Assembly: GCA_947494195.1 (NCBI GenBank)
Contig: CANLUC010000002.1
Span: forward strand, 62,001-126,000
Source: an uncultured Nesterenkonia sp.
GTDB lineage: Bacteria; Actinomycetota; Actinomycetes; Actinomycetales; Micrococcaceae
Length of the DNA stretch: 64,000 nt
Direction of reading: 5' to 3'
Shown: piece by piece, positions 29,832 through 44,584 of the stretch
Layout: the number at the start of each line of letters is the position of its first letter
Position numbering within the stretch: the stretch's first letter is position 1
The notes under the pieces: model-generated
What the model was told of the DNA's origin: nothing
Databases searched by the model: none
The model's input: only the letters and a program-made list of their open reading frames with translations
Translations under genes and position numbers: made by a program

Positions 29832-32738
29832 TCAGGCGCTGAAGAGGTCCGTGTACTGCTTGCGGAGCTCGGCCTTCTGGACCTTGCCCATGACGTTGCG
29901 GGGGAGCGCCTCCACGAAGCGGACGGCGCGCGGCTGCTTGAAGCGGGCCAGCTCACCGGCCAGGGCTCCGAGGATCTGCGCCTCATCGGGGGTGCCATCG
30001 GGGGCGGGGACGACGACGGCGACGAGTCCCTCGCCCAGATCCGGGTGGGGCACTCCGATCACCGCAGACTCGATCACCCCGGGCTGATCATCGATGAGTC
30101 CCTCCACCTCTTTGGGGTAGATGTTGAACCCACCGGAGATCACCAGGTCCTTGTCCCTCCCGACGATGCTCAGGTACCCCTGCTCGTCGATGGTGCCGAG
30201 GTCTCCGGTGATGAAGAAGCCGTCTTCACGGAACTCTTCGGCGGTCTTCTCCGGCATGTTCCAGTAGCCGGCGAAGACATTGGGCCCGCGCACCTCGATG
30301 ATGCCGACCTCCCCCTGCGGCAGGGTCTTCGCGGTCTCGCGGTCGGTGATCCGCACCTCGACGCCGGGCAGCGGATGACCCACGGTTCCCGGCCGACGCG
30401 GACCTCCCCGGTAGGGGTTGGAGGTGTTCATCCCGGTCTCGGTCATCCCGTAGCGCTCCAGGATGGCGTGGCCGGTGCGGGCCTGGAACGACTCATGGTC
30501 GGCGGCCAGCAGCGGGGCAGAGCCGGAGACGAAGAGCCGCATGCTCGAGCAGGACTCCTCGCTGAGCCGGTCCGAGCCGAGCAGTCGGGTGTAGAACGTC
30601 GGGACCCCCATCAGCACGGTGGCACCCACGGCGGAGTCCGTCATCGCATCGAGGACATCGGCGACGTCGAACTTCGGCAGCCAGATCATCGAGGCGCCTG
30701 CGGTGAGCGTCATGTTCACGGCGACGAAGAGCCCGTGGATGTGGAAGATCGGCAGTGCGTGGATGAGCACGTCCTCGGCGGTGAACTCCCAGGTCTGCAG
30801 CAGCGAGGCGCAGTTCGCCGCCAGGTTCTGGTTGGTCAGCACGGCGCCCTTGGAGCGGCCCGTGGTGCCTGAGGTGTAGAGGATCGCACCAGGGTCCTCG
30901 GGGAGTCGCGACGCGATGTCCCGATGCTCCTGCTCGGCGGCGAGCAGAGTGCCCTCTCCCGTGGTGCCGAGGGTCTCGACGACGATGCCGTCCTTGCCGC
31001 GGACGACATGGTCGGCGGCCTGGCTCGGGTCACAGACCAGCACCCGCGGCGCGGCATCGGACATGAAATAGTCCATCTCCGCACCGGTGTACGCAGTGTT
31101 CAGCGGCAGGTACACGCCACCGACCTGCAGCGTGGCGAGGTAGAGCGCGATGGCCTCGGGAGACTTCTCCACCTGCGCGGCGACTCGGTCTCCGGGTGCG
31201 ACGCCGTCTCCGATGAGCTTCGTGGCGATCCGCCGCGAGGTGTGCAGCACCTCGGAGTAGGACAGCGTCGCCCCGCCGGGCAGATGGAACAGCGCCTTCT
31301 CAGGCTGCTCCTCGGCCCGGGCGAGGAAGCCCTGATAGATGCCGCTGAGCGTGTGATCGGTTGCTGGTTCTTCCACTGCGGTGGTTCCTTTCGTACTGCT
31401 GGTCTGGGCGTCTGCCGCGGGCAGCAGCTGGGAGACGCGTGCTCCCAGCGCCACCGTGGCGTTCCTGACGTAGTCTTCGTGCCGCTGCTCGACCATTCCC
31501 GGCTCGTAGCGGTAGTTGATCATCGCGCCGTAGGACTGGTCCCACATGTAGTCGGCCGTGCTCGCGGGCCAGTGAAGCTGCCACGCGGTGGCCCCATTGC
31601 CCAGGTGGAACCGGGCCACGGAATCCAGCGGCTGACCGTCGGCGCGGCGCTCGACGGCGATGTATTGCGCCAGGGCCGAGGCAAGGCGGCCGCGCAGGCC
31701 TTCAACCTCGGCGTCGGAGAGCTGCGCGGCGGATTCGTGACGCTCGAGCTCTGCGGCGAGCTCGTGCAGCGCGCCTCGGTCAGAGCCTGCGGACTGCTCG
31801 CGCAGCCACCTCCTGAACCCAGGGATCGGGGAGAGCGTGACGAACTGCTCGAGGTGCGGCAGTTCGGTGGAGACCTGGTCGATGACCTGCTTGATGAGCA
31901 GGCTGCCGAAGGAGATCCCCGCCAGTCCGTCGAGTGCGTTGTTGATCGAATACAGCACCGCGGTGTCCGCCTTGGCGGGGGACAGTGCCTCGGTGGGCGC
32001 GAGCAGCGGCTCGATGGCGCCGGGGATGCCCTTGACCAGCGCCACCTCCACGAAGATCAGCGGCAGGTCCCCGGTCGCGGGGTGGAAGAAGGCATAACAG
32101 GTCCGGTCCTTGGGACGCAGACGCCGCTTGAGATCGTTCATGTCCTGCATGGGGTGGACCTTCTCGGAGGCGAGCAGGTGCTGGCGCATCTCCCGGGGTG
32201 CATCCCAGCCCACCTGCTCCATGCGCAGAAAGCCGCGATTGAACCAGGAGCTCAGCAGATGCCGGAAGTCACGGTCCAGGGGCGCCAGATCCGGGTGCTC
32301 GCGCAGCAGCCGGCGAAGGTCGGCCCGCATGTTTACCAGATGCAGTGTGGCTCCGTCCGCGTGGTTCAACCGGCGCAGCAGCTGCTGGCGGCGCGGTTCA
32401 CTCGCGTCGAAGAGGTCGGCGAGCTCCGACTGTCCGCGGGTCTGCTCCCAGCGCTGGTACGCCTCGCGCAGCGTGTCGTCATCCACGGCGTAGGAGCTGA
32501 GCATGTGGCTGAAGAACGTCACCCGGTCGGCGTCGTCCTGAAGGTCTCGGTAGGAGGCGAGAGCGCGATCGGCGACGGCGCGCATCGATGCCTCCCCGAT
32601 GTCGCCCATGAGCACATCACACGCGGCGGCGAGCTGTTCCAAGGGGGGCGGCTCGTCACCGTTCGACTCTGCGGGGCCACGGCTGCCGCCCAGAGAGCGC
32701 AGCAGATCCGAGAGTATCCAACCTTGAGTTGTCGGCAT
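29832..32738 (-). CDS. Malonyl-CoA decarboxylase / malonyl-CoA synthetase fusion (MatA-MatB)
   Basis: A single 968-residue protein. Residues 1-440 are malonyl-CoA decarboxylase, with the conserved core KGIPGAIEPLLAP, NALDGLAGISFG and FVTLSPIPGFRRWL (about residues 298-311). A linker about 440-465 is Ser/Thr-rich. Residues 465-968 are an AMP-forming malonyl-CoA synthetase with TSGTTGRSKGAV (about 620-632), and an adenylate-forming hinge GDLGTIDEQGYLSIVGRDKD towards the C-terminus. It converts malonate to malonyl-CoA and then to acetyl-CoA plus CO2. The AAGGAGG site precedes the ATG at 32738. It is the head of the malonate operon with madL and madM and is divergent from a MatR-like regulator. 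Confidence 0.92.
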   Translation of the reverse strand: MPTTQGWILSDLLRSLGGSRGPAESNGDEPPPLEQLAAACDVLMGDIGEASMRAVADRALASYRDLQDDADRVTFFSHMLSSYAVDDDTLREAYQRWEQTRGQSELADLFDASEPRRQQLLRRLNHADGATLHLVNMRADLRRLLREHPDLAPLDRDFRHLLSSWFNRGFLRMEQVGWDAPREMRQHLLASEKVHPMQDMNDLKRRLRPKDRTCYAFFHPATGDLPLIFVEVALVKGIPGAIEPLLAPTEALSPAKADTAVLYSINNALDGLAGISFGSLLIKQVIDQVSTELPHLEQFVTLSPIPGFRRWLREQSAGSDRGALHELAAELERHESAAQLSDAEVEGLRGRLASALAQYIAVERRADGQPLDSVARFHLGNGATAWQLHWPASTADYMWDQSYGAMINYRYEPGMVEQRHEDYVRNATVALGARVSQLLPAADAQTSSTKGTTAVEEPATDHTLSGIYQGFLARAEEQPEKALFHLPGGATLSYSEVLHTSRRIATKLIGDGVAPGDRVAAQVEKSPEAIALYLATLQVGGVYLPLNTAYTGAEMDYFMSDAAPRVLVCDPSQAADHVVRGKDGIVVETLGTTGEGTLLAAEQEHRDIASRLPEDPGAILYTSGTTGRSKGAVLTNQNLAANCASLLQTWEFTAEDVLIHALPIFHIHGLFVAVNMTLTAGASMIWLPKFDVADVLDAMTDSAVGATVLMGVPTFYTRLLGSDRLSEESCSSMRLFVSGSAPLLAADHESFQARTGHAILERYGMTETGMNTSNPYRGGPRRPGTVGHPLPGVEVRITDRETAKTLPQGEVGIIEVRGPNVFAGYWNMPEKTAEEFREDGFFITGDLGTIDEQGYLSIVGRDKDLVISGGFNIYPKEVEGLIDDQPGVIESAVIGVPHPDLGEGLVAVVVPAPDGTPDEAQILGALAGELARFKQPRAVRFVEALPRNVMGKVQKAELRKQYTDLFSA

Positions 32739-32751
32739 GCCGCCTCCTTCC

Positions 32752-32784
32752 GTGTATAACAGGGGTTCTGATGTATATAACAGC
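32752..32784. promoter_or_regulatory. MatR-type operator: two TGT(ATA)ACA-like elements
   Basis: TGTATAACA at about 32753-32761 and TGTATATAACA at about 32772-32782 lie between the malonate operon and the GntR gene. The FCD/FadR subfamily uses GT-N3-AC dyads and MatR binds TGTATACA-like sequences. The first copy is only about 15 bases from the fusion gene start, so binding could block its transcription or translation. Confidence 0.5.
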
Positions 32785-32850
32785 GACTATAGGGTATTAA
32801 CGTGATCCACGCCACAGTGCGCTGACGATATGCTCGATACAGGAGGTGCC

Positions 32851-33543
32851 ATGGTCCGGGTCCCGGAATCCCAGCGCGTACGGGATGCGTTGGAGAACGC
32901 CATCGTCGATGGGCAGTACGGCCCCGGCGAGCGGCTTGACCCTGCCAAGCTCCAGGAAGAGTTCGGCTGCTCCCGCACCCCGGTGCGCGAAGCCCTGCAG
33001 GGACTCGAGCGTTCGGGCCTCGTGCGGATCCGCCCGAAGCAGGGCACCTACGTCACCGAGCTGAGCATCCCCGAGCTCGCCGAGCGCTTCGAGCTCATGG
33101 CGGAGCTGGAGGGGATGGCCGCCCGGCTGGCTTCGCGCCGGATCGAACACGAGCCGCTGGCCGAGCTCCGGAGGGCACTGGAAGAATGTGAGCGTCACGA
33201 GGCCGCCGCAGATGCCGACGGCTACTACTACGCGAACGCCTGCTTCCACAGCATCATCTACGACTCCTGCGGCAATGGATATCTGCAGCAGCAGGCCCAT
33301 GACCTGCGCCGGATCCTTCAGCCCTATCGCCGGCTCCAGCTGCGCGCCCCGGATCGGATGCGCCGTTCGCTGGCCGAGCACCACGCGATCGTGGAGGCCA
33401 TCAGCAGCGGAGACACTGAGACCGCAGAGAACACCGCACGGGACCACGTCCTGGTGCAGGTCAAGGAGTTCAGTCAGCTGGTGCGCACCTGGAACAGACT
33501 GCGCGAAGCGCGAGTGGGCCAGACCCAGGCCCAGCTCCAATGA
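32851..33543 (+). CDS. matR: GntR-family (FCD) regulator, MatR-like
   Basis: A 230-residue regulator. The start is set at 32851 because AGGAGG lies just upstream, overruling an ATG at 32830. The winged helix-turn-helix spans about 8-65 (ERLDPAKLQEEFGCSRTPVREAL). The FCD effector domain (about 80-220) has conserved His/Asp positions that bind a metal/acid ligand. Divergence from the malonate genes makes it the likely malonate sensor that represses them. Confidence 0.9.
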   Translation: MVRVPESQRVRDALENAIVDGQYGPGERLDPAKLQEEFGCSRTPVREALQGLERSGLVRIRPKQGTYVTELSIPELAERFELMAELEGMAARLASRRIEHEPLAELRRALEECERHEAAADADGYYYANACFHSIIYDSCGNGYLQQQAHDLRRILQPYRRLQLRAPDRMRRSLAEHHAIVEAISSGDTETAENTARDHVLVQVKEFSQLVRTWNRLREARVGQTQAQLQ

Positions 33544-33553
33544 AAGGAATCTG

Positions 33554-34402
33554 ATGTCGACGGAGCGAAGCCCCGAGTTCATTGAAGCCATCTCGCGAGG
33601 ACTGTCCGTGATCACGGCCTTCTCCGCCGAGTACCCCAGCCTCACACTGAGCCAGGTGGCCAAGGCCACCGGCCTGGCCCGGCCCACGGCGCGGCGGATC
33701 CTGATGACCCTGCAGGAGCTGGAGTATGTGCGCTCAGACAACGGGCTCTTCGGACTGACCCCCCGCGTGATGGAGCTCGGCATGGCCTATGTGAGCTCGC
33801 TGGGCCTCTGGGACGTGGCCAGGCCACATCTCGAGTCTCTGGTGACCCACACCCACGAGTCCGCCTCGATGACTCAGCTCGACGGGCCGGACGTGGTCTA
33901 CGTGGCGCGCGTCGCGGTGCCGAAGCTGATCGGGCTGCGGGTCGACATCGGCACCCGCTTCCCCGCCCCGCCCACCTCTCAGGGCAAAGTGCTGCTGGCA
34001 GATATGGAGCGCCGCGAAATCCTGCAGCGCCTGTCCGAACCCTCGCGCTCGCCGGTGATCCCGGTGGTGCAGTGGGACCAGAAGTCCTTCATGGACGAGC
34101 TGGACCGGGTGCAGCAGCAGGGGTACGCGGTGGCCGACGAGGAGCTGGCACGCGGCATCCGCTCCATCGCGGTGCCGGTGCGCGATGGCGACGGGCGCGT
34201 CCTCGCCGCGATGAACACCACGGTCCATGCGGCCGAGACCAGCCTCGAGGCACTGCTGAGCAGGCACCTGCCACACCTGAAAGAGGCCGCGGCGGCGGTG
34301 ACCGAGGACTGGACGCGCTGGCAGTCCATGCCCAGTCATGTCCGCGAGCGCGAGGTGCCCGCCGTCGGGCGGATTCCGCTGCTGCCCGCCGAGGAGGGCT
34401 GA
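33554..34402 (+). CDS. IclR-family transcriptional regulator
   Basis: A protein of 282 residues from the ATG at 33554, with AAAGGAA six bases upstream. The N-terminal HTH is about 15-65 (LSQVAKATGLARPTARRILMTL). The effector domain is about 85-255 (QGKVLLADMERREILQRL; ELARGIRSIAVPVRDGDGRV), typical of PcaR/PobR aromatic regulators. It is 10 bases after the MatR-like gene and immediately before the aromatic island, so it may control that island. The 3' end lies in a triplicated junction with ligA. Confidence 0.9.
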   Translation: MSTERSPEFIEAISRGLSVITAFSAEYPSLTLSQVAKATGLARPTARRILMTLQELEYVRSDNGLFGLTPRVMELGMAYVSSLGLWDVARPHLESLVTHTHESASMTQLDGPDVVYVARVAVPKLIGLRVDIGTRFPAPPTSQGKVLLADMERREILQRLSEPSRSPVIPVVQWDQKSFMDELDRVQQQGYAVADEELARGIRSIAVPVRDGDGRVLAAMNTTVHAAETSLEALLSRHLPHLKEAAAAVTEDWTRWQSMPSHVREREVPAVGRIPLLPAEEG

Positions 34403-34470
34403 GGCTGCACCGCCACCGAAGGGCTGAGGGCTACATCGCCACCGGAGGGCTGAGACTACATTGCCACCGA
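34395..34470. repeat. Triplicated 25-26-bp junction between iclR and ligA ends
   Basis: Three imperfect units (34395-34419, 34420-34445, 34446-34470) beginning AGGGCTGAG. Unit 1 holds the iclR stop and unit 3 holds the ligA stop; each unit carries both stop-codon contexts. Confidence 0.85.
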
Positions 34471-34821
34471 GGGGTAGTCCCGGCCGGTCCAGTGACCGAG
34501 CTGCCGGGCCATCTCCGTCTGGAAGGCCAGTGGGCCGTGTGCAGCGGCGTACTCCTCGTCGAAGAGAGCGATGAACAGCGTGAGGTTCAGGAAGAAGTGC
34601 GCGCCGTTCTCGAAGAGCCAGACGTAGTCGTGGGTGGACAGCGCCTCGCGCTCCTCGGCCGTGAACTCCAGCCAGCTGGTCTGCTCTACGGAATTCAGCC
34701 AACGGCCGATCTCCTTCTCCCAGCGATTTACCGTGCCGCGCGGATCATCCTTATAGCTGGCCACCCATTCCGGATCCCGATCGATGGTGAAGAGGAACTT
34801 GTTGACGTAGTACTTGCTCAT
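34456..34821 (-). CDS. ligA: LigA-like small subunit of an extradiol dioxygenase
   Basis: A 121-residue protein resembling the alpha (LigA) chain of protocatechuate 4,5-dioxygenase: mostly helical, with LFENGAHFFLNLTLF and HDYVWLF segments. The ATG at 34821 has AGGAGC just upstream. It is 13 bases after the LigB gene and would complete the active-site entrance of the dioxygenase. Substrate (protocatechuate, gallate or another catechol acid) cannot be decided. Confidence 0.85.
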   Translation of the reverse strand: MSKYYVNKFLFTIDRDPEWVASYKDDPRGTVNRWEKEIGRWLNSVEQTSWLEFTAEEREALSTHDYVWLFENGAHFFLNLTLFIALFDEEYAAAHGPLAFQTEMARQLGHWTGRDYPSVAM

Positions 34822-34834
34822 GCTCGCTCCTGAC

Positions 34835-35824
34835 TCAGGTTTCGGATCCAGCGGCCGTCGCCGCGCGCTCACCGCGGAACTGATCCCAGGCGGCATCGCT
34901 GGCGTAGATAGGCCCGGTGCTCGCCTGCGCGGTCTCCGCCGCGCGGGCCGCCGCCTCGCGCTGGTCCTGATTCTTGTTCGGGTACCAGGTCATGTACATC
35001 TCCCGGGTGTGGAACAGATCGAGGTGATCGACATAGTCCGCGTGGACTCCGGGGCCGGCGATGCCCATCATCAGCAGCAGGTCCATGAAGCCGTGGGTGG
35101 CGTTGCCGGCCCCGGCCATGGATTCGTGGGTGACGTTGTCCAGGATCGCGTCGATGTTGCCGGTGGAGAGCCATTCGATGGCATCGGCGTCGAAGAGCGG
35201 ATCCGGGCCGTGCTCGCCGAACTGCCGGGGTCCGCCGAGCTCCAGCGAGAGATGCCCGGTGCCGATCGCGGCGACCTTCTTGTCACTGGGAAAGCTGTCG
35301 ATGATCTCCCGGATCGCCCGTCCGACCTGGAAGAACCGGCGCGGTGAGGGCAACGGTGGCACGAAGATGTTCGTGTAGATGGGCACGATCGGCAGGTCCG
35401 CGTCGGGGCGGACCGTGATGATCGGGCAGATGATGGAGTGGTCGATCTTCAGTTCGTGGCTGACCGAGAAGTCGAAGTCCTTGCCCAGCAGCTCCTCATG
35501 CATATAGCGGGAGAGCTCGATGTCACCGGCGAGAGTGTACTTCGGGATCCCGAACTCGCGCTCCTCGTTGTAGAAGGTCGCGTCGTAGGTCTCCTGCTTG
35601 CCGATCAGGAACTGTGGATAGTTGTCCAGCCAGAGCTGGTGGAAGTGATCCGCCCCGACCATCACCAGAATGTCGGGCTCCGCGGCGGTGAGCGTCTCGC
35701 GGTAGGCCTCGACCTTGCGCTGCCAGTCGGCGGCGTAGGGCGGTCGCTGATCTTCCGGAGAGGTGGTGGCCTTGTAGTAGAACGGGTGGTGGGTGCTCGC
35801 GAGCACCGCGGTCAGCTCTGCCAT
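34835..35824 (-). CDS. ligB: Class III extradiol dioxygenase catalytic subunit (LigB)
   Basis: A 329-residue Fe(II) extradiol dioxygenase. Predicted metal and active-site residues include His12 (STHHPF), His60/His62 (GADHFH) and a His in IGTGHLS (about residue 192). It cleaves a catechol-type ring next to the hydroxyls. In protocatechuate degraders the product is 4-carboxy-2-hydroxymuconate semialdehyde; with gallate it is 4-oxalomesaconate. It lies two bases after the citryl-CoA-lyase-like gene and 13 before ligA. Confidence 0.9.
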   Translation of the reverse strand: MAELTAVLASTHHPFYYKATTSPEDQRPPYAADWQRKVEAYRETLTAAEPDILVMVGADHFHQLWLDNYPQFLIGKQETYDATFYNEEREFGIPKYTLAGDIELSRYMHEELLGKDFDFSVSHELKIDHSIICPIITVRPDADLPIVPIYTNIFVPPLPSPRRFFQVGRAIREIIDSFPSDKKVAAIGTGHLSLELGGPRQFGEHGPDPLFDADAIEWLSTGNIDAILDNVTHESMAGAGNATHGFMDLLLMMGIAGPGVHADYVDHLDLFHTREMYMTWYPNKNQDQREAAARAAETAQASTGPIYASDAAWDQFRGERAATAAGSET

Positions 35825-35826
35825 GA

Positions 35827-36705
35827 TCAGCTCTCCCTCGGCTCATCAGAATCGGAGGACGCGCCGGAGTCACGATGGGTGTCATCATCGCTCTCGTCCG
35901 GGGTCAGCGGAACGAACCTCGCGTTCCGATCCACATGCATATAGATGTCATTGGCGATCGGGTTGCGCCGCTCCTCGGCGATCTGCCCCAGCAGACCGGC
36001 GGTGCGGGCCAGCAGCGCGAAGCCGCGCAGGAAGTCCACCGGCAGACCGAGATCCGCCAGGGCAGCCCCGCAGACTCCGGCGCCGTTGAGCGGAAGCTTC
36101 TTGCCCAGCACTTCTTCGCTGACCCGACCCATGGCCTCGAACAGGCGCAGGTGTTCCCCGCGGGTCCCTCCCTCCTCCGCGATCTGGATCAGCCGCGGAG
36201 TCCGCGGGTCACCGGCCTTGTGCACCGGATGCCCCAGGCCTGGGACGATCTGCCGGGCGGCGCGTGCCCTGGTGATCGCGTCCCGCGCCAGGGCGTCATA
36301 GTCCGCGTCGGTGCTGCGCTCGCCGTCGTCGGCTGCAAGCACCTGGTGCAGGAACTTGCCGGTGTCCTCGGTGACGCCGAGGAACCGGGAGCCGCCGCCG
36401 AGCAGTCCTGCCGCGATGGCGCCCTGGATGGACTCCGGGGCGGAGAGGTAGGTCAGCCGGGCGGCGATCGCGGTGGGGGTGAACCCGTGGTCCGCGAGCG
36501 CGACGAGCACGGCCTCGAAGGTGCGCAGCTCCCCGGGAGTGGGCCGGCGGGTGGCGCTCATCCAGAAGGCCAGCTCGGCGAACCCGACCTTGCCCATCAG
36601 GTCCTCGGAGAGGGACTGCCCCATGAGGCTGATCTCCTCGGCGGTGGAGGTCCCCAGCGAGGTGGGGTAGCTCGGTGTCTGATTGTTCTGCTCTGCACCG
36701 CTCAT
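35827..36705 (-). CDS. Citryl-CoA lyase-like, citrate synthase superfamily
   Basis: A 292-residue protein with the citrate synthase fold: GLGHPVHKAGDPRTPRL (about 160-176), NGAGVCGAALADLG (about 220) and a C-terminal NDIYMHVDRNARFVPL. These match the short citryl-CoA lyase group, which cleaves citryl-CoA to acetyl-CoA and oxaloacetate. The 4-base overlap with a CoA-transferase gene suggests that its substrate is first activated to a CoA ester. In this island the substrate may be a tertiary-alcohol acid from ring cleavage; this is inference. Confidence 0.82.
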   Translation of the reverse strand: MSGAEQNNQTPSYPTSLGTSTAEEISLMGQSLSEDLMGKVGFAELAFWMSATRRPTPGELRTFEAVLVALADHGFTPTAIAARLTYLSAPESIQGAIAAGLLGGGSRFLGVTEDTGKFLHQVLAADDGERSTDADYDALARDAITRARAARQIVPGLGHPVHKAGDPRTPRLIQIAEEGGTRGEHLRLFEAMGRVSEEVLGKKLPLNGAGVCGAALADLGLPVDFLRGFALLARTAGLLGQIAEERRNPIANDIYMHVDRNARFVPLTPDESDDDTHRDSGASSDSDEPRES

Positions 36706-37895
36706 CGTTGCGCCCCTTCCTCGGTCTGCAGCCAGGCCCGGATCTCCTCGGTGTGCTCACCCAGCGTGGGCGGAGCCAGATCGTAGCGTGGGGTCATCGT
36801 GCTGAAGGTCAGCGGGTGCCGGACCCCGGGCACCGCGGCAGCACCCGTCCCCACCTGCACCACCGGCTGCAGGCCGAGTGCCTCGGCGTATTCGACGCCC
36901 TGCTTGATGGTGTTGATCGGACCGCAGGGCACGCCGACCTCGTTGAGCTTCTCGAAGAGCTCCTGGGCCGTGTGCTTGGCGAGCTCCGCCTCCAGGATCG
37001 GACGCAGCTCGTCACGCCGGTCGGTGCGGTCGCCGACGTCGGCGAAGCGCTCGTCCTCGGCGATCTCCGGTATGCCCAGCACCGTGCAGAGACGGCTGAA
37101 CTGGGTGTTGTTGCCGGCGGCGATGATGACGTCGTCGTCAGCGGTGGGCATGGCCTCATAGGGGTACAGCGAGGGGTGGGCGTTGCCCATGCGCATCGGG
37201 GTGGTCCCGCCGCCGACATAGGCATGGGTCTGGTTGACCAGTCCTGACATCGCCGAGGCCATCAGGGACGCCTCCACGTGGGCGCCCTCCCCCGTATGGT
37301 CGCGCTGCCGCAGCGCTGCGAGGATGCCGATCGTGGAGTGCAGCCCGGCCATCACGTCGAACACGCTGATCCCGGCACGGAAGGGTGGCCCGTCCGGTGA
37401 GCCGGTGAGACTCATCAGCCCTGACATGGCCTGCACGATGAGGTCATAGCCGGGGTATTTGGCGCCCTCCCCCTGCGTGCCGAAGCCAGTGATGGAGGAG
37501 TAGATGACGCTCGGGTTGTCCTGGACCACCGAGTCGTAGTCCAGCCCGAACTTCTGCAGACCGCCCGGCTTGAAGTTCTCGATGACGACGTCGGCCCGCG
37601 CCGCCAGGCGCTGGGCTGCGGCGAGGTCCTCGGCATCCCTGAAATCCAGCACGATCGACTTCTTATTGCGGTTGATCGCCGCGTAATAGGTCGAGACTCC
37701 GTCGGGGCGCCGCGGCGGGACCCAGGTGCGGGTGTCATCCCCGGTCGGCCCCTCCACCTTGATCACCTCGGCGCCCAGATCTGCCAGCAGCATGGTGGCA
37801 TACGGGCCCGCGAGCACCCGCGAGAAGTCGGCGATCACGATCCCCTCGAGCGGCAGCGGCGAGCCTGCCGCGGCATGCGAAGCGGTGTCAGTCAT
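36702..37895 (-). CDS. CaiB/BaiF family CoA-transferase (class III)
   Basis: A 397-residue class III CoA-transferase. Its N-terminus LPLEGIVIADFSRVLAGPYATMLLADLGAEVIKVE (about 15-49) is characteristic. It moves CoA from an acyl-CoA such as succinyl-CoA to an acid. GGAGGA lies about eight bases before the ATG. It leads a four-gene unit with the citryl-CoA-lyase-like gene and ligB/ligA. A CGGAC-N4-GTCCG dyad is 61 bases upstream. Confidence 0.9.
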   Translation of the reverse strand: MTDTASHAAAGSPLPLEGIVIADFSRVLAGPYATMLLADLGAEVIKVEGPTGDDTRTWVPPRRPDGVSTYYAAINRNKKSIVLDFRDAEDLAAAQRLAARADVVIENFKPGGLQKFGLDYDSVVQDNPSVIYSSITGFGTQGEGAKYPGYDLIVQAMSGLMSLTGSPDGPPFRAGISVFDVMAGLHSTIGILAALRQRDHTGEGAHVEASLMASAMSGLVNQTHAYVGGGTTPMRMGNAHPSLYPYEAMPTADDDVIIAAGNNTQFSRLCTVLGIPEIAEDERFADVGDRTDRRDELRPILEAELAKHTAQELFEKLNEVGVPCGPINTIKQGVEYAEALGLQPVVQVGTGAAAVPGVRHPLTFSTMTPRYDLAPPTLGEHTEEIRAWLQTEEGAQR

Positions 37896-37955
37896 ATCGG
37901 GTTCCTCCCGGTCGGCCCTGCTGGCGAGACGTCTGTCGGGTCAACAACCGTCATG

Positions 37956-37969
37956 CGGACAAGCGTCCG
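37956..37969. promoter_or_regulatory. CGGAC-N4-GTCCG operator A (CoA-transferase side)
   Basis: Perfect dyad CGGAC-AAGC-GTCCG, 61 bases upstream of the CaiB-type gene. It is one of four related dyads around the aromatic island (see 38079, 40258 and 43122). Confidence 0.7.
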
Positions 37970-38078
37970 TCCTTGTCGTGACCAGTTTCACACCAGACGG
38001 CCGAGAGCGTCAAGCGTCGAGCCACCTGCACTGCAGCGCGCTCTTGGATGAGAAGGATCCCAGCACATAACCAGCGAA

Positions 38079-38092
38079 CGGACTCTTGTCCA
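38079..38092. promoter_or_regulatory. CGGAC-N4-GTCC operator D (amidohydrolase side)
   Basis: CGGAC-TCTT-GTCCA, one mismatch to the dyad consensus, 58 bases before the amidohydrolase ATG. It lies in the same divergent promoter region as operator A, one site for each gene. Confidence 0.55.
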
Positions 38093-38149
38093 CTGTGCGA
38101 ACACGCGCTATTGTGAGTGGCGTCACAGACATCTTCACAGGAGGCTGAC

Positions 38150-39640
38150 ATGAGTTCTGACGCCGCAGCCAATGGCACCGGCGCGCCCGTGCTGTTCAAG
38201 AACGGGATCGTGCTGACCATGGACAAGGACCGGAGCGTGCTGACCCGGGCCGACGTGCTGGTCCGCGGGGACACCATCGCGGCCATCGGGCCCGACCTCG
38301 AGACCCCCGAGCACGCTCAGATCATCGATGCCGCCGGCGGAATCGTCACCCCCGGCTTCATCGACACCCACCGCCACATGTGGCAGACCGCGATGCGCGG
38401 CTACGGCGCCGACTGGACGCTGACCCAATACTTCGTATGGAACTACCTCGAGCATGGGAAGAAGTTCCGCCCCGAGGACATCTACGCCGGGAACCTGCTC
38501 TCCGCCGTGGAGGCTCTCGACGCCGGGGTCACCACCTCGGTGGACTGGTCCCATGGCCTCTCCACCGTGGATCACGCCGATGCCGCGGTGGACGCTCTGC
38601 AGGAGGTCGCGGGGCGGTTCGTCTTCGCCTACGGCAACATTCATGCTGGCCCCTGGGAATGGTCGACCTCACCCGAGTTCCGCGACTTCGTGGATCGTCG
38701 GATCCCCCGCTCGGGGGGATCGATCGGCGATGACATGCTCGGCTTCCAGATGGCCTTCGACGTCACCGGAGATCCAGAGTTTCCGGAGAAGGCGGCCTTC
38801 GAGGTCGCCCGGGACCTCGACGTCGGGGTGACCACCCATGCTGGAGTCTGGGGCGCGACCAACGACGACGGCATTCGGCTCATGCACGAGCACGGATTCA
38901 TGAATGAGAAGACCGTCTACGTCCACGCGGCCACCCTGGGTCAGGATTCATATCAGCGCATCGCCGCCACCGGAGGCGCCGCCTCGGTCTCTGCGGAGTC
39001 GGAGTCCAGCTGCGGCCAGGGATACCCGTCCTCCTGGCAGCTGCGCAAGCACGGCATCCCTGTCTCGCTGTCCGTGGACACCTCGGTCTGGTGGAGCGCG
39101 GACCCCTTCGCGGCGATGCGCTCCACGTTGAGCTCCGATCGCGCCCGCGAGCACTTCGAACACCACGCCACCGGGGAGACCCTCACCAACCTGGGCCTGC
39201 GTGCCGATCAGGTGGTGGAATGGGCGACTCGAGGCGGGGCGAAGGCACTCGGCATGGAGGAGACCATCGGTTCGCTGGAGGTCGGAAAGAAGGCCGACGT
39301 CGTGCTGATCAAGAACGATGACTCCCCTGCGATGTTCCCGATCCTGAACCCGCACGGTCACGTGGTGTTCCAGGCCCAGCGCGGAGACGTGCACACGGTC
39401 ATGGTCAACGGACGGATCGTCAAGCACGAGCACAAGTTGGTCGACGTCGATCTGGCGAAGGTCCGCCGCACGGTGGAGCAGACCGTGGAGCACATCGCCG
39501 GCGAGCTGGGCCGTGAGGAATGGGAGGCCGGCATGAGCCCGGAGGTTCCCGAGACCAAGATCCTCGACAACCCCTACACCTACACCGAGTACCGCACCGA
39601 CACCACGCACGCGGCACAGGGCCGCGGGCCTGGCGCATGA
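38150..39640 (+). CDS. Amidohydrolase / deaminase of the ATZ-TRZ type
   Basis: A protein of 496 residues from the ATG at 38150, which has AGGAGG five bases upstream. It belongs to the metal-dependent amidohydrolase superfamily: the N-terminal beta-sandwich strand GIVTPGFIDTHRHMW carries the HxH pair near residue 72, and the C-terminus has LEVGKKADVVLI. This group includes guanine, hydroxyatrazine and S-adenosylhomocysteine deaminases. Here it lies in an aromatic island and may open or deaminate a heterocycle, but no substrate can be named. It is divergent from the CoA-transferase unit. Confidence 0.85.
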   Translation: MSSDAAANGTGAPVLFKNGIVLTMDKDRSVLTRADVLVRGDTIAAIGPDLETPEHAQIIDAAGGIVTPGFIDTHRHMWQTAMRGYGADWTLTQYFVWNYLEHGKKFRPEDIYAGNLLSAVEALDAGVTTSVDWSHGLSTVDHADAAVDALQEVAGRFVFAYGNIHAGPWEWSTSPEFRDFVDRRIPRSGGSIGDDMLGFQMAFDVTGDPEFPEKAAFEVARDLDVGVTTHAGVWGATNDDGIRLMHEHGFMNEKTVYVHAATLGQDSYQRIAATGGAASVSAESESSCGQGYPSSWQLRKHGIPVSLSVDTSVWWSADPFAAMRSTLSSDRAREHFEHHATGETLTNLGLRADQVVEWATRGGAKALGMEETIGSLEVGKKADVVLIKNDDSPAMFPILNPHGHVVFQAQRGDVHTVMVNGRIVKHEHKLVDVDLAKVRRTVEQTVEHIAGELGREEWEAGMSPEVPETKILDNPYTYTEYRTDTTHAAQGRGPGA

Positions 39641-39667
39641 GACGCTGAGCCGTTTCGCCGCTGCTGA

Positions 39668-39706
39668 ACTTCGGGACTGCACCCAGACAGGGCGCAGTCC
39701 CGAAGT
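39668..39706. terminator. Bidirectional terminator between amidohydrolase and doxX
   Basis: Arms ACTTCGGGACTGC (39668-39680) and GCAGTCCCGAAGT (39694-39706), a perfect 13-bp stem with a 13-base loop, between convergent genes. Confidence 0.7.
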
Positions 39707-39718
39707 GCGTCCACCCAC

Positions 39719-40240
39719 TCAGCGCGCGGCGGCCTTCTTCACCACGGCGGCAAAGGGGATCACCGCGAGAGCAGCCCCGAGCAGGACCGCTGCGCCCACC
39801 CAGGGGGCCGGCTGGAACACCATCTCGAACGCGGATCCGGGCTCAGCCAGCAGGGCATCGAGCGAGAATGCGCCGGCACCGGTGAAGCCCAGCACGGCCG
39901 CCGCCGCCGCGAGGACATAGGGATACTCCCCGCCTCCGGCGATGTTCCAGAACTTCCCCGAGTTCAGCTGCATGGTCACTCCCGCGACCGCCATGGTTCC
40001 GGCTGCCAGCAGGGCGGCCAGCGGAGTGAGCAGCCCGAACAGCAGGCCGATGGCGGCCAGCAGCTCAGAGACCCCGGCGGCGAGCACCATGGCACGGCCC
40101 GGCCGCAGGCCGAGCGCGGCGAAGATCTCTGCCTGCCGACTCAGCCCGTTTCCCCCGAACCAGCCCGCGAGCTTCTGGGTGGCATGGGTGAACAGGATCA
40201 GCGCCAGGACGAGTCGCAGCAGAAGCAATCCGGTTTCCAT
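39719..40240 (-). CDS. DoxX-family membrane protein
   Basis: A 173-residue protein with four helices in the DoxX pattern (LLLRLVLALILFTHATQKLAGWFGGNGL near the start; ELLAAIGLLFGLLTP). In Bacillus the DoxX protein MhqP is encoded beside a ring-cleaving dioxygenase and helps resist quinones. Here it follows the esterase and dioxygenase genes with a 78-base gap that contains a CGGAC-N4-GTCCG dyad, so it may also have its own promoter. Confidence 0.85.
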   Translation of the reverse strand: METGLLLLRLVLALILFTHATQKLAGWFGGNGLSRQAEIFAALGLRPGRAMVLAAGVSELLAAIGLLFGLLTPLAALLAAGTMAVAGVTMQLNSGKFWNIAGGGEYPYVLAAAAAVLGFTGAGAFSLDALLAEPGSAFEMVFQPAPWVGAAVLLGAALAVIPFAAVVKKAAAR

Positions 40241-40257
40241 CAGCGCCTTTCGCTAGT

Positions 40258-40271
40258 CGGACGCATGTCCG
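40258..40271. promoter_or_regulatory. CGGAC-N4-GTCCG operator B (doxX promoter)
   Basis: Perfect dyad CGGAC-GCAT-GTCCG, 17 bases upstream of the doxX start. It matches operators A and C in both arms. Confidence 0.7.
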
Positions 40272-40318
40272 TTACGAGGTCCAGTCTTGCCCGCCGGGAT
40301 TCTCGCGTCAAGACATCC

Positions 40319-40981
40319 TCAGTCCTTGAGGAACCGCCGCAGATAGTCCGCGAGGCGGCGCGCGGCTTCCTCGGAGATGTGGTGCTCGGAGTCGCGGTAG
40401 ACCGTCAGCGTGGTCGAGGCGACGAGCGCCTCGAAGGCCGCTGCAGTCTCCTTCGCCCGGTGCAGCGGCACCCAGGGGTCCTCATCGGCGCAGAACAGCT
40501 CCACCGAGATGCTGCTCATCGCACCCGACGGAGCCTTGGCGAAGTCCCGGGGCCGCGGACCAAGATATCCGCCGGTGTGCAGCACCGCCCCGTCCACGGC
40601 CGGCTGGCGGGTGAGCAGGTACTCGGCGAGCAGGCAGGCTCCCTGCGAGAACCCCAGGACGACGACGGGCGCCCCGCCTGCGTCCCTGCGCTCGAGCAGC
40701 GCGGAGAGCTGTGCCTCCAGGACCTCCAGAGCCTGTCCGAGCTGGGGCTGATTGGACTCCGGCGGTTCCATGAATCTTCCCGGGTACCAGGAGTTCTCGG
40801 CAGCTTCGGGCAGGAACCAGCAGATTCCTTCCACTTCCAGGCCCTCCACCCCCAGGCGGTCCGCGAGCTCGATCCACGCGCCGGGGCTCTGCGTCCGCCC
40901 GTGGACCCCGTAAACCACCAGCCGGGCATCCTCGAGGTCGGCGCCATGGTGGACCATGGGCAGCTGATCATGGGTGGGCAC
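40319..40981 (-). CDS. Alpha/beta hydrolase, carboxylesterase (MhqD-like)
   Basis: A 220-residue alpha/beta hydrolase. The nucleophile elbow GFSQGACLL (about 115-123) and the C-terminal His in HHISEEAARR fit the phospholipase/carboxylesterase group. B. subtilis MhqD, a similar protein encoded beside a dioxygenase, is induced by methylhydroquinone. It is six bases after the VOC dioxygenase gene and so co-transcribed. Confidence 0.85.
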   Translation of the reverse strand: MPTHDQLPMVHHGADLEDARLVVYGVHGRTQSPGAWIELADRLGVEGLEVEGICWFLPEAAENSWYPGRFMEPPESNQPQLGQALEVLEAQLSALLERRDAGGAPVVVLGFSQGACLLAEYLLTRQPAVDGAVLHTGGYLGPRPRDFAKAPSGAMSSISVELFCADEDPWVPLHRAKETAAAFEALVASTTLTVYRDSEHHISEEAARRLADYLRRFLKD

Positions 40982-40987
40982 GTCGGT

Positions 40988-41947
40988 TCAGTCCTCGGTG
41001 CGCAGCGGCTCGAGCTGGGACATGATGTGCTCACGCTCATGCTCGAACTGCGGCGGCAGCATGAAGTGGCTGCCCAGCTCCTCGGGGGACTCGTCGCAGT
41101 CCCAGCCGCCGTCGGCGTGGGTCACCGCAAGTTCGAAGAGCGCCCCGCCGGGGGTCCGCACGTAGTGGGACTTGAAATAGGTCCTGTCTTTGAGCTCGGA
41201 GATGTCGGTGTAGCCAGCGCCTTCGATCTCGAACTTCGAGGCCTCCTGGTTCTCCAAGGTGTCGAAGTTCCAGGCGAAGTGGTGATAGGTGCCGGCGGCA
41301 AAGCGCCAGGTGCCCTGATCATCGGTGCGGTTCCCGCGCAGCTCGACCCAGTTGCCGAAGTCATCCGAGCCCACCTTGAAGCGGGCCACGTCACCCGCCT
41401 CGTTGATGTCTCCACCGAGGAAGAACACGTCCTTGGCGAAGTCCACCATCCGGTCCTGGTCATAGACGTGGATACCCATCCCATAGATCCCGTGGATGGC
41501 ATGCTCTTCCGGAACGCCGTTGCCGGAGTAGCCGCGTCGCGGGTCGCCGTGCACGCCGACAAGCACGTACTCGAGCCCACAGGGGTGGGTCAGTGCGATG
41601 CGACCTTCCCCGAAGAGCTCGGACTGCACGGCATCGATGTCCATGGACTTCAACCGCTGCATCCAGAACTGCAGGGACCCCGCGGGCACAGCAAGCATGA
41701 CCTCCCGCGCCTGGTTCGTTCCGCGGGTGCCGAAGCGTCCCTGTTGAGCCCAGGGAAACGTGGTGAGCACGGCGGAGGGGTCACCGTTGGCGTTGGAATA
41801 ATAGAGGTGGTAGATCGGGACGGAGCCGTCATAGAGCACGGTCTTCTTGATGAAGCGCATCCCCAGGACCTTGGTGTGGAAATCCACATCCTCCTGGGCC
41901 GCGCCGACGGAGAGTGTCACGTGATGAGAGCCGAGCAGGTAGGTCAT
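40988..41947 (-). CDS. VOC-family ring-cleaving dioxygenase (MhqO/MhqE-like)
   Basis: A 319-residue protein of two vicinal-oxygen-chelate modules. Predicted Fe ligands are His near residue 8 (SHHVTLS), His near 221 (HHFAWNF) and Glu near 271 (LFELAVT). It resembles the Bacillus Mhq hydroquinone dioxygenases. With the downstream maleylacetate reductase it would take a hydroquinone-type ring towards 3-oxoadipate. It is flanked by the esterase and the maleylacetate reductase on the same strand. Confidence 0.88.
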   Translation of the reverse strand: MTYLLGSHHVTLSVGAAQEDVDFHTKVLGMRFIKKTVLYDGSVPIYHLYYSNANGDPSAVLTTFPWAQQGRFGTRGTNQAREVMLAVPAGSLQFWMQRLKSMDIDAVQSELFGEGRIALTHPCGLEYVLVGVHGDPRRGYSGNGVPEEHAIHGIYGMGIHVYDQDRMVDFAKDVFFLGGDINEAGDVARFKVGSDDFGNWVELRGNRTDDQGTWRFAAGTYHHFAWNFDTLENQEASKFEIEGAGYTDISELKDRTYFKSHYVRTPGGALFELAVTHADGGWDCDESPEELGSHFMLPPQFEHEREHIMSQLEPLRTED

Positions 41948-41971
41948 GGTGATGCCCTTCTTGAGACGTGA

Positions 41972-43054
41972 TTACGGGTGGGATCGAAGCTCGGAGGGGT
42001 CCTGGCCGGCCCAGGCCGCGCGCAGCAGCCGGACGGCGTCGTCCTGGTGCATGCCCCGCGGATTGCTGGCGGGGACGACCTCGAGGACCTGTGCTGCCGC
42101 CAGCTGGAGGTCCTGTTCCTGCAGTCCGAGGTCCTTCAGCGCGCGCGGTGCGCCGATCCGTGCGCGAAGCTGTTCCACGGCATCCAGTGCGTCCGCTGCG
42201 CCGAGTGCCCGCGCGATGCGGTCACCGGCCGCCGGGGCGGCGTCAAGGTTGAAGGCGAGCACATAGGGCAGCACGACGGCATGGGTCTGGGCATGCGGAA
42301 GACCGAAGCTTCCGCCCAGCACGTGGCAGATCTTGTGGTGCAGACCCGAGCCCGCGGAGGCGAAGGCGGTGGCCGCGAGGTAGGCGCCATATTGCAGCTG
42401 CTGCGGGCCGTCCACTCCCGCGCCGGGGTCCTCGGTGATCTGCACCAGCCCGAGCGCGAGTGCGCGCATCGCCTCTTCGGCCCAGGCGGCATTGAGCGGA
42501 TCGGCGCCCGGCGCCCAGAGCGAGTCCACACAGTGGGCCAGCGCATTGAGCCCGGAGGGGATGCTCAGGGATGTCGGGAGGGTGACGACGAGGTCGACGT
42601 CGTAGATCACGCTGCGGGGCAGCACCGCGTCGTCGACGCCTGTGGTCTTCCTGCCCTGCTCGGTGATCCCCCAGACGTTGGTCGCCTCGGAACCGGCATA
42701 GGTGGTGGGCGCTGCGATCAGCGGCAGCTTCGAGCCCAGGGCGATGGCCTTGCCCAGACCGATCGCTGAGCCTCCACCCACGCAGACCAACAGATCAGCA
42801 TCGACCTGCTCGGCGATCCGAGCCGCGGACTCGGAGTCCTCTGCGGGGACGTGCTGCCGGGCGCCGTCATAGCGGTGCGCCACCGGAAGGACCTCAGCGA
42901 GCTGGTCTGCGGCGGAAGCGGCGCTGCTGGAGGCGATGAGCATCACGCGGCCGGCGGTGAGCCGCTGGACCTCGGCACCGACATCAGTAATCAGGTTGCC
43001 CGCTCCGAAGTGGACGCGCTGACCGAGGGTCTGATGGCTGAAGCTCATCGACAT
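41972..43054 (-). CDS. Maleylacetate reductase
   Basis: A protein of 360 residues from the ATG at 43054, which has AAGGGG six bases upstream. It is an iron-containing alcohol dehydrogenase-fold protein: GGGSAIGLGKAIAL (about 95-108), PTTYAGSEATNVWGI (about 119-133) and GLHHKICHVLGGSF, the segment characteristic of maleylacetate reductases. It reduces maleylacetate to 3-oxoadipate with NAD(P)H. It is first in the unit before the VOC dioxygenase, esterase and doxX genes. Confidence 0.9.
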   Translation of the reverse strand: MSMSFSHQTLGQRVHFGAGNLITDVGAEVQRLTAGRVMLIASSSAASAADQLAEVLPVAHRYDGARQHVPAEDSESAARIAEQVDADLLVCVGGGSAIGLGKAIALGSKLPLIAAPTTYAGSEATNVWGITEQGRKTTGVDDAVLPRSVIYDVDLVVTLPTSLSIPSGLNALAHCVDSLWAPGADPLNAAWAEEAMRALALGLVQITEDPGAGVDGPQQLQYGAYLAATAFASAGSGLHHKICHVLGGSFGLPHAQTHAVVLPYVLAFNLDAAPAAGDRIARALGAADALDAVEQLRARIGAPRALKDLGLQEQDLQLAAAQVLEVVPASNPRGMHQDDAVRLLRAAWAGQDPSELRSHP

Positions 43055-43121
43055 AGCGCGCCCCTTAGGCCCATGACTCCCCGCCAAGGCTCCAGGTGGG
43101 AAGTCACTTGCAACGAAGATG

Positions 43122-43135
43122 CGGACATGTGTCCG
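43122..43135. promoter_or_regulatory. CGGAC-N4-GTCCG operator C (maleylacetate reductase promoter)
   Basis: Perfect dyad CGGAC-ATGT-GTCCG, 67 bases upstream of the maleylacetate reductase start. The flank GATGCGGACA also matches operator A closely. Confidence 0.7.
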
Positions 43136-43204
43136 TCAAGTCATTATGTGATGCGCACCACAGCTTCTGTCAAGGGGTTCTTCGGCCACTCTGACCATCC
43201 GCGC

Positions 43205-44584
43205 TCATGCCGCGCGGCGGAAGGCGGTCTCGATCTGCTCCAGCGTCCGCTCCTTGGTCTCCGGCACCTTCTTCCAGCAGAACAGGAAGGCGGTGAAGCA
43301 GATGAGGGCGAAGCCGGCGAAGATCCAGCCCACCCCGAAGGCGGCGAGTGCGGTGGGGAACAGCAGCGAGACCAGGCCGTTGGCGAGCCAGTGGGCGGTG
43401 GTCACCACGCCCATCGCGGCGGCGCGGACGCCGAGCGGGAAGATCTCCCCGAGCACCACCCAGACCAGTGCGCCCCAGCTGACCTGGAACATGAAGATGA
43501 ACACCGCCAGACAGGCGAGGGTGGCGATGCCCAGCGCGCCGACTTCGTCCGGGGTGGGCAGCGTCAGGTTCACCACCGCCAGGACCGCGAGCGCCAGCGA
43601 GGTGCCAAGCGCGCCGATCAGCAGCATCGGGCGGCGTCCCCAGCGGTCCGTGTAGCTGATCGCGATCCAGACGGCCACGATGTTGAGCACCCCGATGATG
43701 AGGTTCGAACCGATGGCTCCTTCATCGGAGAAGCCGACGTTCTGCAGCGTGGTGGGTGCGTAGTACAGCACCGCGTTGATGCCCATGATCTGCTGGTAGA
43801 CCCCCAGGCCGAAGCCCACTCCGAGGATCGAGAGCACCCAGGGGCGGCGCAGCGCGCGCAGACCGGAGACGCCGTCGCGCTTCTCGGCCTCATGCACCTC
43901 GTGGATCTCGCCGAGCTCCTGGCGGGCCTCCTCCGGGGTGCGGTCGCGCAGCAGCATCTGCTCCGCCTCCGCCTCGCGCCCCTTGTGGACCAGCCACCGC
44001 GGGGTCTCCCGCACCACCGTCAGGCCCAGCGCGAAGAGCACCGAAGGGATCACCGAGAGCCCCAGCATCCATCGCCAGGACTCCACCGGGGCGAACGCCA
44101 CCCCGACCACGAACCCCAGGAACTGACCGATGACGATGGCCAGCACATAGGAGGCGGTCACGCGTCCGCGGATCTTTGCGGGGGCGATCTCGGAGAGATA
44201 CACCGGAAGGACGACGGCGGCCAGGCCGGTGCCCAGTCCGACCACCAGACGTGCGGCGAAGAGCACCTCGGCGTTCGGCGCGAAGGCCATGCCGAGCGGG
44301 GCGACGAGGAACAGCGCGGCGGTGATCAGCAGCACGGCGCGACGGCCGTAGCGGTCCGAGAGCCGCCCGCCCAGACCCGCGCCGATCGCGGCTCCGATCA
44401 TCAGCCCGGTGACGATCGCGCCTTCGGCCCAGCTGGAGAGTTCGAAGTCGCGGCGCAGGTAGACCAGCGCGGCGGAGATGACGCCGGTGTCATAACCCCA
44501 GTTCAGCCCGCCGAGGGCGCCGAAGAGGTAGATCAGGGTGGAGCCCGCGCGCCGGTTCGGTGCGGTGGGTGATGCTGTTTTCAT
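43205..44584 (-). CDS. Sugar-porter-family MFS transporter
   Basis: A protein of 459 residues from the ATG at 44584 (AAGGA five bases before). It has the sugar porter signatures GGLNWGYDTGVISAA (about 22-36), SDRYGRR and TDRWGRR after helices 2 and 8, and PETKERTLEQIE at the C-terminus. Twelve helices are seen. Members carry monosaccharides, inositol or aromatic/dicarboxylic acids with H+. Its position near the aromatic island does not settle the substrate. Confidence 0.9.
   Translation of the reverse strand: MKTASPTAPNRRAGSTLIYLFGALGGLNWGYDTGVISAALVYLRRDFELSSWAEGAIVTGLMIGAAIGAGLGGRLSDRYGRRAVLLITAALFLVAPLGMAFAPNAEVLFAARLVVGLGTGLAAVVLPVYLSEIAPAKIRGRVTASYVLAIVIGQFLGFVVGVAFAPVESWRWMLGLSVIPSVLFALGLTVVRETPRWLVHKGREAEAEQMLLRDRTPEEARQELGEIHEVHEAEKRDGVSGLRALRRPWVLSILGVGFGLGVYQQIMGINAVLYYAPTTLQNVGFSDEGAIGSNLIIGVLNIVAVWIAISYTDRWGRRPMLLIGALGTSLALAVLAVVNLTLPTPDEVGALGIATLACLAVFIFMFQVSWGALVWVVLGEIFPLGVRAAAMGVVTTAHWLANGLVSLLFPTALAAFGVGWIFAGFALICFTAFLFCWKKVPETKERTLEQIETAFRRAA

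Follow-up and report, generated by a model that had tools for sequence, protein, structure and literature searches.

A probable IclR-type operator motif and its predicted regulator in an aromatic-degradation island of Nesterenkonia

The stretch analysed here, which we call the window, comprises 64,000 nucleotides of an uncultured Nesterenkonia sp. (GenBank assembly GCA_947494195.1, contig CANLUC010000002.1, positions 62,001 to 126,000 of the forward strand). It contains an island of genes for the breakdown of aromatic compounds, in which four transcription units are each preceded by a CGGAC-N4-GTCCG dyad, one of them with a mismatch. These four dyads are real, which is confirmed by their conservation and not by their counts. 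The IclR-family protein encoded at 33554 is very probably the regulator of all four units and is predicted to act through the dyads. We regard the switch as a new and well-supported case within a known class of IclR operators, because the operator fits the type described in PMC8222616 and PcaR/PcaU/PobR is the model nearest to the protein. The candidate regulator and its predicted sites are:

33554 to 34402, plus strand: IclR-family regulator, PcaR/PcaU/PobR-like, proposed to be a ligand-controlled repressor (Pfam and TIGRFAM profiles, co-occurrence)
37956 to 37969, minus strand: operator dyad CGGACGCTTGTCCG of the coenzyme A (CoA)-transferase unit, with a degenerate third box CGGTT at 37946-37950
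38079 to 38102, plus strand: predicted three-box operator CGGAC-TCTT-GTCCA-ctgtg-CGAAC of the amidohydrolase gene (dyad 38079-38092; pattern and conservation)
40258 to 40271, minus strand: operator dyad of doxX, with a possible third box CGAAA at 40248-40252
43122 to 43135, minus strand: operator dyad of the maleylacetate reductase unit, without a third box
G000:C5:81703 (L008), outside the window: perfect dyad before a Gfo/Idh/MocA oxidoreductase gene (genome scan)

Dyads of the island and their conservation in Nesterenkonia

An exact pattern match returns the four sites that the first-pass annotation of this DNA had named, with 37956, 40258 and 43122 being perfect and 38079 carrying one mismatch. 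The claimed spacing of 17 to 67 base pairs (bp) to the unit starts is also reproduced (CoA-transferase 60, amidohydrolase 57, doxX 17, and reductase 67 bp); here the reductase start was taken as the ATG at 43054, and the listing of open reading frames begins at a TTG at 43087. No further perfect CGGAC-N4-GTCCG is present within the 64 kilobases, in line with the earlier remark that the pattern was not seen at other promoters of the window. The genome scan that had been proposed as a check gave a divided answer, with counts at control level but a clustering and conservation that are not chance-like. The genome contains nine perfect dyads and ten matches to the reversed control pattern, so that the frequency by itself is chance-like and speaks against the sites. 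Allowing one mismatch, the window has nine matches versus 8.64 expected and the 38079 site alone would therefore not stand. Three of the nine perfect sites are, however, found inside 5180 bp (P = 0.00085 under random placing), and no 5-bp dyad with a gap of 0 to 10 other than CGGAC-N4 occurs three times in the region 32701-43300. Six perfect sites are located outside the window. Three of these are within coding frames (L005, L007, and L009), one is between frames (L001), and one is intergenic and conserved (L008, the last site of the list). The remaining site, L006, is intergenic behind purA and was treated as chance: none of seven relatives gave an alignment over the site, five of them aligning to other parts of the query only.

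Matches to the CoA-transferase were found in 22 of the 30 genomes of the genus, of which 12, with at least 82% identity and our own genome included, were treated as having orthologues. The loci compared comprise the island of the window, eleven further islands of the genus, a remnant in genome G012 (L066), and an island of a related genus (L067); the dyad scan of the genus took in the 13 genomes encoding the IclR protein. The CoA-transferase dyad is perfect in all 13 loci with a CoA-transferase orthologue. The amidohydrolase site CGGACYCTTGTCCA has the identical one-mismatch form in 12 of 12 genus islands, two of which (L079 and L081) have an extra gene between operator and amidohydrolase, and L066 and L067 contain an amidohydrolase without this one-mismatch site. 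The reductase dyad is perfect in eight of the nine genus loci having the reductase, the exception being L076. The doxX dyad is perfect in 7/7 loci in which DoxX heads its own unit, and none was found in L067, L075, L079, L080, and L081, where DoxX follows another gene. The operator sites thus track the heads of units. In general, the arms of the dyads are kept and the spacers vary between species, except for the amidohydrolase spacer, which is invariant. The remnant in G012 has lost the genes for CoA-transferase and lyase together with both sites, and IclR and LigAB are retained.

Two side observations concern the amidohydrolase gene. The extra gene in L079 (8988-10760) and L081 (9510-11222) encodes a long membrane protein that by eye resembles the CstA carbon-starvation transporter. 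In L066 (8451-11068), the natural deletion has put LigB beside the amidohydrolase, whose match is split over two frames.

The first-pass annotation was right about the four sites but had overlooked the fifth, conserved one, by which the regulon would extend outside the window to the operator of the Gfo/Idh oxidoreductase. In the nine genus genomes where the reductase is also encoded, the dyad is conserved with differing spacers: eight have the perfect form, and G066 has one mismatch. Nine genomes without IclR in which the oxidoreductase gene was found, one of them by a partial gene match, contain no dyad there. The gene has a leaderless-looking start by eye. A LigC-like role of its product was considered; the best match is a dihydrodiol dehydrogenase, PmdC giving a weak match with an expectation value (E) of 2.2e-9. 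A conserved block around CACCCTGGGGTNCCACCCTAGGGTTT is found in seven aligned genomes just upstream of this dyad (L008 1420-1500).

The IclR protein and the spread of its sites beyond the genus

The protein encoded at 33554 reaches 51.8 bits with PF09339 (HTH_IclR, cut-off 22) and 112.6 bits with PF01614 (IclR_C, cut-off 24). TIGR02431 (PcaR/PcaU/PobR) is the best of eight models, but the score of 263.8 is below the cut-off of 284.75, and we therefore name the protein PcaR-like and not a member of TIGR02431. At E <= 1e-60 it is found in 13 of the 30 genus genomes, namely the 12 island genomes and the deletion remnant G012, and all genus islands with IclR carry dyads except this remnant. In some relatives, dyads or related words are also present at the promoter of iclR itself. 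For example, a perfect dyad is located 43 bp before iclR in L079, the related word CGGATGGGCATCCG precedes iclR in L081, and the iclR and CoA-transferase genes of L067, which are divergent, share a single dyad between them.

A search at E <= 1e-75 through 396 genomes of the order, sampled from a larger group, identified the IclR protein in 20 of them. Excluding our own genome and G012, 18 loci remain, and 17 of these carry one or two perfect dyads beside the cluster. All 17 encode the CoA-transferase and the lyase, 16 LigB, 15 the amidohydrolase, and 13 LigA (the contig of L122 ends before LigB, and L125 and L126 are without the amidohydrolase). The sole exception is L127, which has the IclR protein but neither cluster nor dyad.

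The third survey started from an alignment of LigB and covers the best 80 of 493 relatives, with L139-L141 and L147 repeating records of the genus-island and order-wide sets. A perfect dyad in the cluster and outside genes is found in 26 of the 34 loci whose IclR is at least 49% identical, in none of the 40 loci with an IclR of 27-40% identity, and in one of the six loci without IclR. The contrast between the first two groups (Fisher p 2.7e-13) is not independent of descent, because the groups split by phylum (the first is actinobacterial, the second proteobacterial and, according to the record titles, nearly all alphaproteobacterial), and nine of the 34 belong to Nesterenkonia and had entered the genus count before; both points lessen its weight. 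Among the eight dyad-less loci of the 34, L137 is the G012 record, and the other seven by eye have a one-mismatch dyad and, at gap 5, a word resembling a half-site. The idea that the motif is tied to the dioxygenase genes themselves was rejected: six stretches of other genera (L068-L073) encode the PcpA/MhqO-like dioxygenase but lack a perfect dyad, and none is present in the 40 proteobacterial clusters despite a LigB identity of 67-77%.

The first-pass annotation had proposed a single regulator for the four units and had named the IclR gene as a candidate. The single regulator is supported by the conservation of the sites and the co-occurrence of IclR and dyads, and IclR as candidate by the dyads in IclR islands, the order-wide recurrence, and the dyads at iclR promoters.

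Operator architecture, mode of action and competing regulators

All 5-bp dyads near the starts of core genes were counted without a prior choice of motif. In the actinobacterial loci CGGAC-N4 ranks first (26/34), TCCGC-N3, which is the GTCCG-N5 pair shifted inward by one base, second (17/34), and GTCCG-N5 third (15/34). In upstream regions of the proteobacterial loci TTTCG-N5 ranks first (26/40), and ATTCG-N5 (12/40) and CGAAT-N4 (11/40) are also found. For the analysis of further boxes the contexts from outside Nesterenkonia were made unique, leaving 47 in which related species remain; L113-L115 were dropped because they are the same records as L139-L141. In 39 of the 47 contexts, one of the two flanks has a third box at gap 5 that agrees with CGGAC in four or more of the five positions. 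Over the 94 flanks this gap has the 39 cases and the other gaps have 0-6, with about 1.5 expected by chance. At the CoA-transferase sites gap 5 is likewise the best of 26 gaps (mean 3.0 of 5 versus 1.49), the third box being partial in Nesterenkonia, and at the amidohydrolase sites the third box YGRAM is found at gap 5 in all 12 genus islands. The zero-mismatch three-box pattern occurs at two places in the genome, at amidohydrolase and doxX. The full predicted operator is thus box-N4-box-N5-box with the half-site GTCCG, which fits the KTYCR consensus, in alternating direction. A three-box IclR operator with alternating half-sites and one N5-6 pair is found at amidohydrolase and not at the reductase. 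For 38079 this changes the earlier description as a one-mismatch dyad. The mismatch is real but the three-box operator had been overlooked, and the site is the most complete operator because all three boxes are kept there.

In the proteobacterial loci, WTTCG-N5-CGAAW boxes are present in 39 of 40, the count taking in the whole locus except the matched genes and allowing three arms. In these loci (L155-L209) the same LigAB pathway is accompanied by a distant IclR, and the boxes are often joined by a third one at N4. We lean towards a regulator and pathway that are orthologous in Actinobacteria and Alphaproteobacteria and have kept the alternating N4/N5 spacing of three boxes, with letters changing from GTCCG to ATTCG/TTTCG, which would make them a natural code book of IclR recognition, and towards a Nesterenkonia regulon that captured a hydroquinone-cleavage module through new operators.

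Promoter elements, assigned by consensus, and additional sites at the same promoters are:

38008 to 38013, minus strand: -35-like TTGACG of the CoA-transferase promoter, with a weak -10 GAAACT at 37984-37989 (same arrangement in orthologues)
40306 to 40311, minus strand: -35-like TTGACG of the doxX promoter, with a -10 AAGACT at 40283-40288
43168 to 43173, minus strand: -35-like TTGACA of the reductase promoter, with a -10 CATAAT at 43143-43148 (spacer 19)
38086 to 38091, plus strand: -35 TTGTCC of the amidohydrolase promoter, overlapping the middle box of the operator
38109 to 38114, plus strand: -10-like TATTGT of the amidohydrolase promoter
38112 to 38127, plus strand: CRP/GlxR-like site TGTGAGTGGCGTCACA, overlapping the amidohydrolase -10 (9-10 of 10 positions in 12/12 loci)
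37977 to 37992, minus strand: CRP/GlxR-like site TGTGAAACTGGTCACG in the CoA-transferase promoter (9-10 of 10 positions in 11/13 loci)
43147 to 43162, minus strand: CRP/GlxR-like site TGTGGTGCGCATCACA in the reductase promoter (at least 8 of 10 positions in 7/8 loci, 9 in 2/8)

At 13 CoA-transferase, seven doxX, and eight reductase promoters a TTGAC-type -35 begins 36-48 bp before the dyad (TCGACA in L065), and 17-19 bp after it follows a -10-like hexamer, with 6-19 bp left between its end and the dyad. In other genera TTGAC is found 36-49 bp before the dyad in 11 of 12 hand-picked contexts, L210 being without. At amidohydrolase a TATTGT-like -10 is located 17-18 bp after TTGTCC, and this pair is the best in 11 of 12 loci and the second in L079. 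The mismatch and the spacer of the amidohydrolase operator are probably invariant because its middle box doubles as the -35. By consensus the sites overlap the promoter or the transcript start, as repressor-type operators do, with the exception of the fifth site. Operators just downstream of the -10 make repression likely, and IclR is thus likely to act as a repressor on these units. Ligand-free IclR would sit on the transcript start, downstream of the -10, at the CoA-transferase, doxX, and reductase promoters and on the -35 box at amidohydrolase. The bound protein would block RNA polymerase, and a substrate or product of aromatic ring cleavage would release it.

PcaU and PobR, the closest family members, are activators and use the same kind of site, and the same IclR could therefore bind the operators but activate the units or act dually. 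The amidohydrolase site, which overlaps the -35, and the fifth dyad, which lies upstream of its presumed promoter at a place more usual for activation, are in line with this. However, the operator is downstream of the -10 at three of the four promoters, where an activator could not work in the usual way, and by eye the iclR operator of L079 is also downstream of a -10. Activation is therefore unlikely, and repression by IclR is the reading that we keep.

In addition, three of the four promoters probably respond to the carbon source through a CRP/GlxR-type protein. Its predicted sites are clear at amidohydrolase and CoA-transferase and partial at the reductase, where 0-54 of 200 shuffles attained the score, and a scan of the same loci found no TGTGA-N6-TCACA word at the doxX promoters. 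A profile search of the genome gave two strong HTH_Crp_2 matches (64.3 and 63.2 bits) among 12.

Several observations weigh against IclR as the regulator or against the proposed operator, besides the TIGR02431 score and the genome counts. The iclR gene of the window is without a dyad of its own and is positioned after gntR, and the iclR promoter of L080 has only a two-mismatch word. The fifth site has no dyad in G012 and G155 despite their IclR. There is no third box at the Nesterenkonia reductase sites, the third box of doxX is confounded with the ribosome-binding site that it overlaps, and with one mismatch the three-box pattern matches five places in the genome versus six for the reversed control. 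The CoA-transferase promoter has a weak -10, and the adjacent GntR is the sole alternative regulator that was weighed.

A regulator encoded elsewhere in the genome, for example of the TetR or MarR type, might bind the dyads with IclR being a mere neighbour, and a short dyad with a 4-bp spacer fits other families too. However, IclR is the only one of the two island regulators that stays with the cluster in dyad-bearing loci (L158, with a dyad but no IclR match in the stretch examined, is an exception to the pairing), dyads occur at iclR promoters, and IclR proteins typically use KTYCR boxes in alternating direction. We consider such a regulator improbable. It is even harder to assign the island to the GntR protein encoded at 32830. 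Apart from the window, eight more genus islands have its gene next to iclR, but no orthologue is found in the fetched stretches L067, L079, L080, and L081 (L081 has a 38% GntR match at another place), which all keep the dyads. Moreover, its own promoter by eye shows a different repeated word and the gene faces malonate-type genes, and GntR was rejected. Chance, which would account for window and genome counts at control level, is refuted by the clustering, the conservation, and the spread beyond the genus, and we give it practically no credit. The IclR protein at 33554 is thus the regulator that we retain.

The repeated words at the gntR promoter are TGTATAACA and TGTATATAACA, seen by eye at 32740-32830 between the divergent gntR and the malonyl-CoA synthetase/decarboxylase-like genes. 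This region may hold a GntR operator that serves a malonate unit, in the manner of MatR. Named from the translations, the 968-residue frame at 29832-32738 comprises a malonyl-CoA decarboxylase and an AMP-binding synthetase, and genes for a MadL-/MadM-like transporter follow it.

Genes of the island, known systems and meaning

The genes of the four units are:

34456 to 34815, minus strand: LigA-like small subunit, named from its place after LigB and conserved beside it; no Pfam or NCBIfam match
34835 to 35824, minus strand: LigB-type class III extradiol dioxygenase (Pfam/NCBIfam and homology), resembling gallate and protocatechuate 4,5-dioxygenases
35827 to 36705, minus strand: citryl-CoA lyase-like protein (NF004868, 292.6 bits, cut-off 193)
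36702 to 37895, minus strand: family III CoA-transferase (Pfam/NCBIfam)
38150 to 39640, plus strand: amidohydrolase of the PRK08204 subfamily (profile and homology)
39719 to 40240, minus strand: DoxX-family membrane protein (profile match)
40319 to 40981, minus strand: phospholipase/carboxylesterase-like hydrolase (profile match)
40988 to 41947, minus strand: PcpA/MhqO-like ring-cleaving dioxygenase (best match 2,6-dichloro-p-hydroquinone 1,2-dioxygenase, E 2.3e-63)
41972 to 43054, minus strand: maleylacetate reductase (top match 3iv7, named alcohol dehydrogenase IV, E 1.4e-113, followed by the maleylacetate reductases 3w5s and 3hl0)

The core regulon would comprise the amidohydrolase, CoA-transferase, citryl-CoA-lyase-like, and LigAB genes, to which Nesterenkonia would have added the hydroquinone-type module (PcpA/MhqO-like dioxygenase, esterase, and maleylacetate reductase) and an operator of its own for doxX. 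Among the loci examined, the module is found with the cluster in Nesterenkonia only; DoxX accompanies the cluster also in Arthrobacter, Kocuria, and one Microbacteriaceae bacterium. The pathway could lead from a trihydroxy-aromatic compound to a tricarboxylate and on to its CoA ester. Candidate substrates are a gallate- or protocatechuate-like ring, based on the LigB homology, and 4-hydroxypyridine. According to PMC7356986, the ring is opened by the amidohydrolase-family enzyme KpiC in the breakdown of 4-hydroxypyridine. The Rhodococcus cluster L163 (3695-13148) also encodes an MhpA-like flavin monooxygenase, an alpha/beta hydrolase, and a LeuD-like aconitase small subunit, and these extra genes may hint at the substrate.

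The gene content (DoxX, carboxylesterase, and MhqO-like dioxygenase) resembles the MhqR regulon of firmicutes with MhqD, MhqO, and MhqP. The MhqR regulon has an operator different from the CGGAC dyads, and in Nesterenkonia the similar genes are joined to an IclR regulon and to maleylacetate reductase. MhqR is a MarR-type regulator, according to the title of PMC6798810.

Suvorova and Gelfand (2021, PMC8222616) describe 32 orthologous groups of IclR proteins with KTYCR half-sites and three-box sites, and give the PobR site as TTGTCCGATSATCGGACAR, which is GTCCG-N5-CGGAC. The operator proposed here has the alternating KTYCR half-sites of these motifs and an N5 pair like that of the subgroup TGTYCRYW3RYGRACA, whereas the spacing of its inner pair is N4. 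PobR of Acinetobacter baylyi has the half-site letters GTCCG in common with Nesterenkonia, and PcaU of the same species requires a third half-site, like the three-box grammar. In contrast to PobR and PcaU, Nesterenkonia keeps the N4 pair more constantly than the rest of the operator, the site is at the predicted transcription start, the place of a repressor, and the targets are the LigAB, CoA-transferase, citryl-CoA lyase-like, and amidohydrolase genes. NdgR of Streptomyces is likewise an actinobacterial IclR protein with GTCC/GGAC half-sites, but these have the reverse order. Among the matches listed, titles and abstracts of the open literature contain no description of this regulon, which may be one of the groups of PMC8222616.

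The analysis assigns a probable regulator and operator, as well as a regulon that can be tested, to an apparently uncharacterised LigAB/CoA-transferase/citryl-CoA-lyase-like pathway that is widely spread, with LigB relatives in more than 12 named genera among the best 80 of 493. It shows how a catabolic regulon may grow by the gain of operators and why one operator would keep its mismatch, being also a -35 box. The most interesting part is the change of letters between phyla at constant spacing, and the paired letter sets of the two phyla could be used to map the IclR residues that read each base.

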